Made by a program: the position numbers and the translations under genes. From Spirochaetia bacterium 38H-sp (lineage in GTDB: Bacteria; Spirochaetota; Spirochaetia; Winmispirales; Winmispiraceae), in NCBI GenBank assembly GCA_039023545.1, contig JBCHKQ010000001.1:124001-188000 (forward strand): a stretch of 64,000 bases of DNA. The letters are read 5' to 3'. Of this stretch, positions 25,810 through 50,471 are shown in pieces. The notes under the pieces were generated by a model. The model searched no databases, was not told the origin of the DNA, and saw nothing but the letters and a program-made list of their open reading frames with translations. Each line of letters begins with the position of its first letter. The stretch's first letter is position 1.

Positions 25810-25839
25810 TTGACAATCGTACTCCCTTTTTTATATATT
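25810..25839 (+). promoter_or_regulatory. Promoter of the candidate small RNA
   Basis: Consensus TTGACA (25810-25815) with TATATA at 25832-25837 (16-bp spacer) or TATATT at 25834-25839 (18 bp). Transcription would start near 25845, just before the two-hairpin RNA, and would not require a coding region. Confidence 0.65.
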
Positions 25840-25845
25840 TATATC

Positions 25846-25959
25846 AGAAGATGTGAGCAACAATCTTCTCAGGTTTCACCTCCTTTCCTGAGAAGAAAAA
25901 TGAGTTACCCGTTTTTATGCCCCTCAGGTTTCTACCTCCTTTCCTGAGGGGCTTTTTTT
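25846..25959 (+). ncRNA. Candidate small RNA with two anti-Shine-Dalgarno hairpin loops
   Basis: Hairpin 1: stem CTTCTCAGG/CCTGAGAAG (25865-25873, 25887-25895), loop TTTCACCTCCTTT. Hairpin 2: stem GCCCCTCAGG/CCTGAGGGGC (25919-25928, 25943-25952), loop TTTCTACCTCCTTT, followed by seven T. The two loops are near-identical and contain ACCTCCTTT, the sequence of the 3' end of bacterial 16S rRNA, so they could pair with Shine-Dalgarno sequences of mRNAs. A good promoter lies directly upstream and a terminator is built into hairpin 2, giving a transcript of ~110 nt. leuS has its own downstream promoter, so this is probably not just a leuS leader. Loop design recalls C-rich-loop sRNAs such as Listeria LhrC. 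No reading frame is evident within it. Confidence 0.6.
25919..25959 (+). terminator. Intrinsic terminator (second hairpin of the candidate RNA)
   Basis: Perfect 10-bp GC-rich stem followed by T7. Confidence 0.88.
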
Positions 25960-25977
25960 ATAATCATAACAATTATA

Positions 25978-26006
25978 TTGACTTATAAACCAAGCTGCTG
26001 TATCAT
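25978..26006 (+). promoter_or_regulatory. leuS promoter (leaderless arrangement)
   Basis: TTGACT (25978-25983), 17-bp spacer, TATCAT (26001-26006), then eight bases to the ATG. No ribosome site lies in between. Confidence 0.65.
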
Positions 26007-26014
26007 CCAAAACC

Positions 26015-28444
26015 ATGAAAGACTACCCTTTTCAAAAAATAGAAAAAAAATGGCAGGATTATTGGCTGTCCAACAAGACCTTTTCTGTAAAAGAAGATCC
26101 CACAGTTCCAAAAGAAAAAAGAAAATATGTTCTTGACATGTTTCCTTATCCATCAGCACAAGGATTACATGTAGGACACCCGGAAGGCTACACTGCAACA
26201 GACATATACTGCAGATACCTTAGGATGAAAGGCTACAAAGTACTCCATCCTATGGGCTTTGACTCCTTTGGTCTGCCTGCAGAAATATATGCGATAACAA
26301 CAGGAACACATCCCCGCATAACAACAGAGCAAAATATAAACAAATTCAGAAAACAGATACAAGCCCTTGGCTTTTCTTACGATTGGGATAGAGAAATATC
26401 AACACACACTCCGGAATACTACAAATGGACACAGTGGATGTTCCTCAAAATGTATGAAAAAGGCCTTGCGTACATGGCAGAAATACCAGTCTGGTATTGC
26501 GAAGAACTTGGAACAGTACTTGCAAACGAGGAAGTGCTCCAGACTCCAGAAGGCCCTCGATCAGAGAGAGGTAATCACCCTGTAGTAAGAAAACCCTTGA
26601 GACAATGGATGCTAAAAATAACAGCATACGCTGACAGACTTCTGGAAGGACTGGATAAACTAGACTGGCCAGAATCCATAAAAGCCATGCAGAGAAACTG
26701 GATCGGCAAAAGCGAGGGAGCCAATGTCCGTTTTAAAATAAAAGGCTATGAAGAAAATTTGGAAGTCTTTACCACAAGACCGGATACCCTTTTTGGTGCA
26801 ACTTATATGGTAATAGCACCAGAGCACCCTCTTGTAGAAAAGATAACAACAGAAAAACAAAAACAGGCAGTAAAAGAATACATAGAAAAAGCTCAGTTAA
26901 AATCAGACTTGGAAAGAACAGACCTTGCAAAAGAAAAAACAGGAGTTTTCACAGGCGCATATGCAATAAACCCTTTTACACAACAGGAAATCCCTATTTG
27001 GATATCCGATTACATCCTTATGAGCTATGGAACAGGCGCAATAATGGCAGTGCCCGCACATGATGAGAGAGACTGGGAATTTGCCAAGAAATTTAATCTG
27101 CCCATCATTCAGGTAGTGTCAAGAGACGGGAAACCCCAAGAGCTTACAGAAGCCTTTACAGAAGAAGGCATAAGCATAAACTCAGGACAATTCTCAGGAC
27201 TTCCCACAAAAGAAGCAAAAGAGAAAATTATCAGTTATATAGAAGAAAACAAGCTGGGGAGAAGAGCTGTCAACTACAGACTAAGAGACTGGATATTCTC
27301 AAGACAGAGATACTGGGGAGAACCATTTCCAGTAGTACACGTAGAAGGAGATGGAGTACAAGCCGTCCCATATTCAGAATTACCTGTAACACTTCCTGAG
27401 GTAAAAAGCTACAAACCCACAGGAACAGGAGAATCGCCCTTAGCTGCAATAAAGGAGTGGGTTGAAACAAATGCACCAGATGGCTCGGGGAGAAAAGCCT
27501 ACAGAGAAACCAACACCATGCCGCAGTGGGCAGGCTCATGCTGGTACTATCTGAGATATCTAGACCCTCACAATGACAAAGAATTCGCATCAAAAGATAA
27601 AATAGAATATTGGATGCCTGTAGACCTGTACGTAGGAGGAGCAGAACACGCAGTACTTCACCTCCTATACGCAAGATTCTGGCACAAAGTGCTCTATGAT
27701 CTCGGGCTTGTAAACACCGACGAACCCTTCATGAGACTTGTAAACCAAGGCATGATCCTCGGAGAAGACGGCGAAAAAATGTCAAAATCCAGAGGTAACG
27801 TAGTAAACCCCGATGACATAATAAAAGAATACGGTGCCGACTCGCTTAGAATGTACGAGATGTTTATGGGACCACTGGAAGTCACAAAACCATGGTCAAC
27901 AAAAGGCCTCTACGGAGTACACAGATTCCTGACAAGAGTATGGAGGATAAGCGAACGTCCCATAGTAGAAACAGAGCCAGAAAAAGAGCACCTTATAGCA
28001 TTACACAAAACCATAAAAAAAGTTACCAATGACACAGACACACTCAACTTCAATACAGCAATAGCCCAGATGATGACCTATATCAATCAAATCAACAACC
28101 TCAAGGAAATCCCAAGAAAACTCTGGGAACCATTTGTACTCCTTCTCGCACCCTATGCACCTCACATAGCAGAAGAAATGTGGGAAAAACTCGGACACAA
28201 AGAAAGCCTGGCATACCACCCATGGCCTCAATACGATGAAAAACTCACAATAGACAAAAAAATTACAGTAGTAGTACAGATAAACGGCAAAGTAAGAGCA
28301 AAACTGGAAACAGAAAGAGATACCCCCAAGGAAGACCTGGAGAAGCTGGCACTCTCTAACCAAAGAATAAAAGAACTATTGCAAGACAAAACCGTAAAAA
28401 AAATAATTACCGTTCCCAACAAAATAGTAAACATAGTCATATAA
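26015..28444 (+). CDS. leuS: Leucyl-tRNA synthetase
   Basis: 809 residues. Class I signatures HVGH (52-55) within [15 protein letters not shown], and KMSKS (588-592). The connective editing domain is present ([18 protein letters not shown]). Bacterial-type LeuRS; length slightly below the 850-880 of many bacteria. Start [14 protein letters not shown] fits the family N-terminus. No Shine-Dalgarno sequence; a promoter ends 8 nt before the ATG, so the mRNA is probably leaderless. Ends in a terminator that belongs to the palindromic repeat family. Confidence 0.98.
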
Positions 28445-48841: not shown

Positions 48842-48870
48842 TTGACAGCCTGCGATTATTCTTAAATAAT
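48842..48870 (+). promoter_or_regulatory. glyA promoter
   Basis: TTGACA (48842-48847), 17-bp spacer, AATAAT (48865-48870); TAATAA with a 19-bp spacer is the alternative. Transcription would begin right at the aptamer. Bases 48770-48800 upstream look like a degenerate copy of the palindromic repeat (GCCTGATGGC then GCGTCCGGCATA). Confidence 0.55.
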
Positions 48871-48872
48871 AA

Positions 48873-48945
48873 CATGACGACTGGCGCAACAGGCGGAAAA
48901 AACCGCCGGGGAGTCTTCTTTCTTCTGTCGCGCGTCTGGGCAGAA
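48873..48945 (+). ncRNA. ZTP (pfl) riboswitch upstream of glyA
   Basis: The conserved pfl elements are present in order: GACTGGCGCAACAGGCGG, then CCGCCGGGGAG, a short linker, and the 3' half CGCGCGTCTGGGCAG. ZTP riboswitches sense the purine intermediate ZTP/ZMP made when 10-formyl-THF is short and turn on one-carbon genes such as glyA. The 3' half overlaps a possible hairpin CTTCTG/CAGAAG followed by a T-rich run (48952-48961), a likely termination platform; the GGAGG of glyA lies just beyond. Confidence 0.9.
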
Positions 48946-48971
48946 GTAGATTATTTTTTTTGGAGGAAGAC

Positions 48972-50471
48972 ATGTCCCAATCAGTATTGGAACGCTACCT
49001 TGCCAATAATCCGGATGCAGTTAAAAATCCCGAGATGTTGGCTTTTGTAGCACAGTTGGAAACAGTATCTCAAGTTGCTCCCGAGATTGCAGCATCAATT
49101 GTAAAAGAGCTCGCGGACCAGAGAAGCAATATAAAACTTATAGCCAGCGAAAATTTTTCTTCTCTCTCCGTTCAGTATGCTATGGGCAACCTTCTTACTG
49201 ATAAATATGCAGAAGGGTTCCCCAGACACAGGTTCTATGCAGGCTGCGACAATGTCGATGACATAGAAGAAGTAGCATGCCGCGAGGCAGAGGCTCTTTT
49301 TGGTGCGGACCATGCCTATGTGCAGCCTCATAGTGGAGCTGATGCCAATATGGTGGCCTTTTGGTCAGTTCTCATGTGGAAGATTCAGTCCCCTTATCTA
49401 GAAGAGATTGGCAAGAAAAATCTCTACGACCTTAGCAAAGAAGAATGGGACGAGATAAGAAAGCAACTCGGCAATCAGAGACTTTTGGGGCTTGATTATT
49501 ATTCTGGCGGACATCTCACACATGGATACCGCTACAATGTATCCGCTCAGATGTTTGATGCTTATTCCTACGGAGTAAATCGCGAAACAGGACTCTTAGA
49601 TTACGATGAGATAGAGAAAATGGCCATGGAGATAAAGCCCCTTATTCTGCTTGCAGGCTACAGTGCATATCCGCGCAAGATAGACTTTGCAAGAATGAGA
49701 GAGATAGCGGATAAGGTAGGTGCAGTGCTCATGGTGGACATGGCTCACTTTGCAGGTCTAGTTGCAGGAAAAGTCTTTACCGGAAACTACAATCCGGTGG
49801 AACATGCCCATATAGTAACAAGCACAACCCATAAGACACTGCGTGGTCCCCGCGGCGGACTTATCCTCTGTAAGCAGGAACTTGCAGAGTACGTGGACAA
49901 AGGCTGTCCCATGGTGCTAGGAGGACCCCTTCCGCACGTACTGGCAGCAAAGGCAGTAGCCTTTAAAGAAGCCCGTAAGAAAGACTTTGAGACCTATGCC
50001 CATAAAATAGTGGAAAACTCTCAAGCACTTGCAGAAGAGCTTAAAAAACGCAACATAACAATAGCAACTGGAGGCACAGACAACCATCTTATGCTCATAG
50101 ACGTACGCCCCTTTGGCATAACAGGGAGACAGGCAGAAGCCGCAGTAAGAGAATGCGGCATCACACTCAACCGCAATGCACTTCCCTATGACCCCAACGG
50201 ACCGTGGTACACAAGCGGACTCAGGATAGGAACACCAGCTGTCACAAGCCTGGGGATGGGCAAAAACGAGATGGCAGAAATAGCAGACCTGTTTGCACTC
50301 ATCCTTGGCAACATAAAGCCAACAGAAACAGACGGGAAAATCAGTAAAGCCAAGTACACACTTGATGACAACATAAAAAAACAAGCAAAAGAAAAAGTAC
50401 AGAACCTGCTTGATAGATTCCCTCTCTATCCATCTCTTGACCTAAACTTTCTAAAAAAAGAGTTTAAATAA
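48972..50471 (+). CDS. glyA: Serine hydroxymethyltransferase, extended form
   Basis: 499 residues, ~80 longer than standard GlyA, with an N-terminal ~30-residue extension and an insertion after HSGADANMVAFWSVL (residues ~130-175). PLP lysine K288 in STTHKTLRGPRGG. Interconverts serine and glycine and makes methylene-THF. The extended form is also found in other spirochaetes. GGAGGAAG lies 5 nt before the ATG, and the ZTP riboswitch directly upstream fits its role in one-carbon supply. Confidence 0.96.
   Translation: MSQSVLERYLANNPDAVKNPEMLAFVAQLETVSQVAPEIAASIVKELADQRSNIKLIASENFSSLSVQYAMGNLLTDKYAEGFPRHRFYAGCDNVDDIEEVACREAEALFGADHAYVQPHSGADANMVAFWSVLMWKIQSPYLEEIGKKNLYDLSKEEWDEIRKQLGNQRLLGLDYYSGGHLTHGYRYNVSAQMFDAYSYGVNRETGLLDYDEIEKMAMEIKPLILLAGYSAYPRKIDFARMREIADKVGAVLMVDMAHFAGLVAGKVFTGNYNPVEHAHIVTSTTHKTLRGPRGGLILCKQELAEYVDKGCPMVLGGPLPHVLAAKAVAFKEARKKDFETYAHKIVENSQALAEELKKRNITIATGGTDNHLMLIDVRPFGITGRQAEAAVRECGITLNRNALPYDPNGPWYTSGLRIGTPAVTSLGMGKNEMAEIADLFALILGNIKPTETDGKISKAKYTLDDNIKKQAKEKVQNLLDRFPLYPSLDLNFLKKEFK

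Follow-up and report, generated by a model that had tools for sequence, protein, structure and literature searches.

The window analysed here is a 64,000-nucleotide stretch of a spirochaete genome, and a short intergenic unit within it, just ahead of leuS, raises the question of whether it encodes a small RNA that acts on ribosome binding sites through loops copied from the 3' tail of 16S rRNA, or whether these loops have some other explanation. A preliminary description of the locus had proposed a unit made of a promoter, two hairpins and a T-run terminator, and this arrangement is borne out by promoter boxes that match the consensus at 11 of 12 positions, by the predicted fold and by a tail of seven U residues.

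25810..25839, forward strand: sigma-70-type promoter of the small RNA, TTGACA-18-TATATT, near-consensus
25846..25959, forward strand: predicted small RNA of about 114 nt with two anti-SD (aSD) loops, resting on the promoter, the fold and orthologues in two relatives (G001 and G002)
25864..25896, forward strand: hairpin 1, 10 bp (stem 25864-25873/25887-25896) with the 13-nt loop UUUCACCUCCUUU
25878..25886, forward strand: anti-SD motif ACCUCCUUU, copy 1, in the loop of hairpin 1
25919..25952, forward strand: hairpin 2, the terminator hairpin, 10 bp (stem 25919-25928/25943-25952) with the loop UUUCUACCUCCUUU, supported by covariation in the family
25934..25942, forward strand: anti-SD motif ACCUCCUUU, copy 2, in the loop of hairpin 2
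25953..25959, forward strand: U7 tail of the intrinsic terminator, directly 3' of hairpin 2
25978..26006, forward strand: leuS promoter, TTGACT-17-TATCAT, separate from that of the small RNA, with a -10 box ending 8 nt before the ATG
26015..28444, forward strand: leuS, a syntenic neighbour outside the small RNA

The position of the promoter boxes predicts a transcription start near A25846. The small RNA region folds with an energy of -42.2 kcal/mol compared with -23.5 kcal/mol for shuffled sequences (z = -5.5), and none of 200 shuffles folds as well. As had been described, a CTCAGG/CCTGAG core is common to the two stems, with the differences beyond it coming as paired changes. The loops, of 13–14 nt, are closed by strong stems, and this combination may restrict the length of pairing available to the RNA. 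The leuS mRNA itself is probably leaderless, and a similar leaderless-like layout (window 25978-26015, forward strand) is present in G001 and G002. Elsewhere in the window, a ZTP riboswitch (RF01750, 53.3 bits) is located at 48867-48948 on the forward strand, just 5' of a glyA-like serine hydroxymethyltransferase gene (48960-50471).

The single 16S gene detected in the genome of the window (G000, a 2.35-Mb assembly) ends in GGATCACCTCCTTTCT, and both loops of the small RNA therefore hold the anti-SD sequence, loop 1 being identical to the tail over 12 nt, TCACCTCCTTTC. The earlier identification of the loops with the ribosomal anti-SD is thus confirmed with the organism's own rRNA, as ACCUCCUUU matches its 3' tail. 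Within the window ACCTCCTTT occurs only twice, exactly at the two loops. The count of this 9-mer is not by itself significant in the window (0.66 are expected, and two were reached in 14 of 100 shuffles); what goes beyond chance is the arrangement of the motifs and its conservation. Over the whole G000 assembly the AAAGGAGGT/ACCTCCTTT pattern is under-represented, numbering 24 sites where the pattern read in reverse has 56.

To follow the locus in other genomes we used BLASTN and covariance models. Orthologues in G001 and G002, two family relatives with one chromosome each (2.47 and 2.56 Mb), keep the promoter boxes with equal spacer length, both loops and the terminator, and their stems are altered by compensatory pairs, including an A-U to G-C exchange in hairpin 1. 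In remoter relatives BLASTN recovers only the terminator hairpin and its loop. A covariance model built from seven terminator hairpins (R1), with which hairpin 2 of the window scores 62.2 bits, matches 71 of 393 genomes and 50 of 168 genera in a sample across the phylum, and a model rebuilt from 90 hairpins (R2) finds the terminator hairpin with an aSD loop in 219 of 391 Spirochaetia genomes, representing 98 of 128 genera. Members are seen in Treponema, in Sphaerochaeta and in free-living lineages. The E-values of these home-made models are rough, and the R2 matches near E = 1e-4, which were not checked one by one, may include ordinary terminators. In a pattern scan of one genome per species (84,980 species) at least 119 stretches were found; among the matches listed, 111 are titled as spirochaetes, and none of the remaining eight has a hairpin with a U-tail. 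Neither the window RNA nor any of 20 related loci matches an Rfam family at the gathering score.

The covariance search in other spirochaetes had been suggested beforehand as a check, and besides matching the family widely it shows that the stem covaries: in 83 distinct sequences, changes on both sides are present at 9 of 10 pairs, with 93.8% paired. The covariation score is 0.429 compared with 0.177 for shuffled alignments, none of 500 shuffles reaches it, and all measures lie above every slid control, although the alignment was guided by the model and is biased towards structure by construction. Nor are the family counts independent trials, because the loci are related by descent. The loop, by comparison, has one steady part across 132 distinct hairpins, (A)CCUCCUUU, with free variation in the preceding base and elsewhere in the 5' flank.

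This pattern of loop conservation bears on the possibility that the likeness to the 16S tail serves to bind and titrate a protein instead of pairing with mRNA; Era, or some other factor of 16S maturation or of initiation, would be a candidate. Era reads GAUCACCUCC. The 12-nt identity of loop 1 to the 16S tail speaks for such a decoy, as does the extension of some Treponema loops to AUCACCUCCUUU, but the GAUC flank is not conserved, and we consider a protein decoy improbable.

We then examined the upstream sequence and the gene neighbourhoods of 127 loci, these being the distinct hairpins with sufficient sequence upstream. A second full ACCTCCTTT is located within 60 nt upstream in 44 of them, whereas neither the control stretch nor the opposite strand has any. 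In the family of the window, and in genome G029, this second aSD lies in a hairpin loop; elsewhere it is single-stranded or within a very small stem just 5' of the terminator. These observations are relevant to another explanation, that the hairpin is an intrinsic terminator of a type typical of spirochaetes, with a loop that serves termination only and no regulatory RNA. All members do end in a strong hairpin followed by a U-run. However, CCTCC loops are confined to 3 of the 156 terminator-like hairpins in a census covering 1.57 Mb of G000, hairpin 1 displays the same loop without being a terminator, and an upstream second aSD and promoters recur at similar distances, so that a purely terminating role seems very improbable.

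The loci are mostly intergenic, with terminator U-runs on one strand only, and two homes recur: one between CNNM and leuS, which the window locus fits on its leuS side, and one between pfk and pgi (the latter named from its sequence, without a Pfam run). In eight further loci of other lineages leuS lies just downstream on the same strand, as would be expected if the unit worked in cis on leuS as an attenuator or insulator, its terminator governing read-through and its loop sequence being incidental. Against this, a separate leuS promoter follows the terminator, and the leuS start region does not pair with the loops (-1.9 kcal/mol); moreover, many members adjoin pfk/pgi or other genes, often convergently and without leuS, and the loop motif is kept whatever the neighbour. 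We therefore give a cis role at leuS very little weight. The independent RNA of the preliminary description, terminated on its own and with loops capable of pairing at numerous ribosome sites, gains strong support from the phylum-wide conservation of the loop, the covariation of the stem, the conserved promoters, the one-strand terminator and the varied neighbourhoods; its transcription and its pairing are inferred.

The idea that upstream elements of the form UUUUCAU(N)ACCUCCUUUUU, the complement of an SD plus AUG plus AAA, are directed against initiation regions was rejected because the spacing does not fit: in spirochaete DNA the distance from SD to AUG peaks at 5–7 nt after GGAGG, and an anti-initiation RNA would need 2–3. 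In one group of these elements CAUC/GAUG forms a small stem. A small ORF on the opposite strand was also rejected, the frames from that ATG being short and, by eye, unrelated between loci.

A different element is found upstream of 34 of the 127 loci, TGTAAC-N14-17-KGTT (K = T/G), with no instance downstream and none on the other strand. The restriction to one strand also speaks to a reading in which the functional RNA is the minus-strand transcript, carrying AAAGGAGGU in its loops and acting as a sponge for ribosomes or CsrA. AAGGA in a hairpin loop would fit a CsrA-like site, but the terminator U-runs belong to the plus strand, as do all 34 instances of the promoter element, none being found on the minus strand, and we see next to no chance that this reading holds.

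The element looks like a promoter for an ECF sigma factor, and this resemblance led us to the genes for ECF sigma factors. Among these, one orthologous group was recovered from 54 of 60 relatives, G000 included, the protein in G007 having 176 aa with Sigma70_r2 and r4_2 domains. Of 39 genomes, 38 have the same promoter element, here as TGTAAC-N16/17-TGTT, directly before the start codon of this sigma gene; in G000 a GGTAAC variant takes its place.

G000:C2:651565-652053, reverse strand: conserved single-copy ECF sigma gene of Spirochaetia (L267)

In several genomes the gene lies 3' of a cysS-like sequence. Pfam gives no match for the product of the gene after it, in which we read by eye one membrane segment and an anti-sigma-type beginning resembling a zinc finger (H-x3-C-x2-C); next come an exported protein of no Pfam family and, in several genomes, a TIG-domain protein. 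From these sequences we infer an autoregulated, envelope-type ECF system with aSD RNAs in its putative regulon. The window copy of the RNA lacks the ECF promoter and has a housekeeping-type sigma-70 promoter instead, so ECF control does not apply to it directly. In a Treponema-like 2.78-Mb chromosome (L279, G025:C1:145300-155300) an aSD RNA is accompanied by an ECF-type box, TGTAAC...TTGTTT, and has a single-stranded ACCUCCUUU and the terminator loop CCUCCUUUU.

Two further aSD RNAs are predicted in G000, and together with the window RNA they make up the three CCTCC-loop cases of the hairpin census.

G000:C2:139771-139811, reverse strand: terminator of a second aSD/CU-rich RNA candidate of about 70 nt (locus L067, G000:C2:138300-141300; also L068, L069)
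G000:C1 about 579130-579265 (near 579225), forward strand: third aSD RNA (L373, L374, L375)

The second RNA has a sigma-70-like promoter, the 5' end ACAACCUCCAGUCCCCCC, ACCUCC, a C-run and the terminator loop UUUUCCUCCUUU; it is conserved in G001 and G002 and nearly identical in the three species. The third has an ECF promoter (TGTAAC-N16-GGTT), a 5' hairpin, a single-stranded CCUCCUU and the terminator loop UUACCUCCUC, and it is conserved in G001 and G002 together with its ECF promoter.

The predicted duplexes between start regions of G000 and the loops average -7.9 kcal/mol, compared with -4.2 and -5.4 kcal/mol in control stretches, and 17% of start regions reach -11 kcal/mol or lower. These energies show a capacity and do not identify targets, because any copy of the 16S tail would pair in this way. 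Using our own simple and rough gene caller, we observed that genes with a long SD (a match of at least 6 nt) are richer in signal-like N-termini than the others (86 of 311 versus 90 of 580; Fisher p = 2e-5), and the top of the long-SD list includes apparent solute-binding proteins, an SPFH protein, an MCP-like protein and other exported proteins. This link to exported proteins is a general property of long SDs in G000, where a perfect AAAGGAGGT ahead of a gene is rare. Canonical Hfq (PF17209) was not detected in any of 60 genomes (G000 and 59 relatives), controls such as E. coli and B. subtilis being positive, and pairing would accordingly be Hfq-independent since no canonical Hfq is detectable.

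The preliminary description had also supposed that many leaderless genes would escape such an RNA. A leaderless class does exist in G000, as genes without an SD show a peak of -10 boxes 6–8 nt before the ATG, and leuS looks like a member and is unpaired; but by the -10-box test these genes are a minority, and the supposition is supported only in part.

How these RNAs relate to known systems with similar loops was considered next. LhrC of Listeria has three redundant CU-rich sites, in loop A, the linker and the terminator loop, and is induced by envelope stress and independent of Hfq (PMC4132741). It resembles the window RNA in its succession of stem-loop A, linker and terminator hairpin, in having CU-rich loop motifs and in occurring in several copies, and the ACCUCCUUU copies of the two window loops correspond in position to its motifs of stem-loop A and the terminator loop; its pairing at the SD without Hfq and its control by envelope stress likewise resemble the mode proposed here for spirochaetes. 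The LhrC family (RF00616) is the best Rfam match over the full length, although at 37.4 bits it is far short of its gathering score of 110. The motif also differs (CUCCC/UCCC as opposed to ACCUCCUUU), as does the phylum; and the third, CU-rich linker motif is absent, the window linker having no CCUCC, whereas other spirochaete members combine a single-stranded aSD with a terminator loop. LhrC is under the LisRK two-component system, whereas ECF sigma control is predicted for many of the spirochaete relatives.

The alphaproteobacterial alpha-r14/NfeR1 RNA has three hairpins with an identical aSD and strongly differing stems, and silencing of ABC-transporter and ntrB mRNAs through occlusion of the SD has been validated (PMC10746234); the related CcsR1-4 RNAs are behind an RpoH-type stress promoter (PMC10253847). 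These "cuckoo" RNAs share with the window RNA several hairpins that display the same conserved aSD loop on divergent stems, but they carry CCUCCUCCC in three hairpins as opposed to ACCUCCUUU in two. The window RNA has no Rfam match to the alpha-r14 family and no shared locus was found. Association with a DUF1127 gene (CIN1 locus) is a trait of the alpha-r14/cuckoo RNAs; the large neighbours of the window RNA are an aldo/keto reductase gene on the reverse strand and leuS on the forward strand, genes of DUF1127 size having been outside this look. Membership in either LhrC or alpha-r14 was rejected, as motif, hairpin number and Rfam scores fail. The earlier suggestion that LhrC and the cuckoo RNAs are the nearest analogues thus holds in the sense of work-alikes, with LhrC the best Rfam match, but the score is below threshold and the window RNA belongs to neither.

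MicA and RybB are sigma-E-dependent envelope sRNAs that use unique 5' seeds and Hfq. They offer a parallel in that a repressor sRNA is driven by an ECF sigma factor paired with an anti-sigma in the membrane, but differ in their seeds and their use of Hfq from the generic aSD found here, with Hfq undetected. Judged on sequence alone, the structural criteria for a class of trans-acting sRNAs with aSD loops are met (a conserved exposed aSD, covarying stems, and a promoter and terminator of its own), and we class the spirochaete RNAs as a separate, spirochaete-wide aSD RNA family with a distinct motif, a link to ECF sigma and no detectable Hfq.

Having weighed these alternatives, we return to the reading that the window encodes a trans-acting, Hfq-independent sRNA that occludes strong SD sites, a reading which we consider probable; in this genome strong SD sites occur preferentially at genes for exported proteins. 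Promoter, structure, terminator, conservation, covariation and the ECF-promoter match are computational results, and transcription, mRNA pairing, repression and the envelope-stress signal are inferences. According to this model, the two hairpins of the RNA of about 114 nt would expose single-stranded copies of the 16S tail, these loops, once paired with a long SD (AAAGGAGGU or portions of it), would deny 30S subunits access to the mRNA, and mRNAs with a weak SD or none would be spared. In many lineages, and for the sister RNA in G000, transcription would depend on the conserved ECF sigma factor encoded with an anti-sigma-like membrane protein; given this ECF/anti-sigma control, the likely role would be to cut strongly initiated mRNAs, notably those of exported proteins, under envelope stress.

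The spirochaete-wide family, the link to ECF sigma and the two further aSD RNAs in G000 all lie beyond the reach of the preliminary description. We found no report of these RNAs in the literature, with subscription journals largely outside our coverage, and almost no regulatory RNAs are known in the phylum, a 2022 survey giving only six distinct annotated sRNAs for Spirochaetes (PMC9029176). If the model is correct, it would describe a widespread spirochaete sRNA (98 of 128 sampled genera) with a predicted regulator, promoter and mechanism, a further case, besides Listeria and the alphaproteobacteria, in which stress-controlled aSD loops arose independently, and a post-transcriptional arm for a conserved spirochaete ECF sigma system in which canonical Hfq is undetected. 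A broader and quite speculative possibility, which we put forward tentatively and with more doubt than confidence, is that this is an ancestral stress system of the Spirochaetia, in which an ECF sigma factor and its membrane anti-sigma switch on RNAs that mimic the 16S tail and act as broad, Hfq-free dampers of SD-led translation. The first to be affected would be mRNAs that encode exported proteins and have a long SD, and those with a weak SD or no leader would escape. Were this so, the mode of translation initiation would itself be the regulated property.
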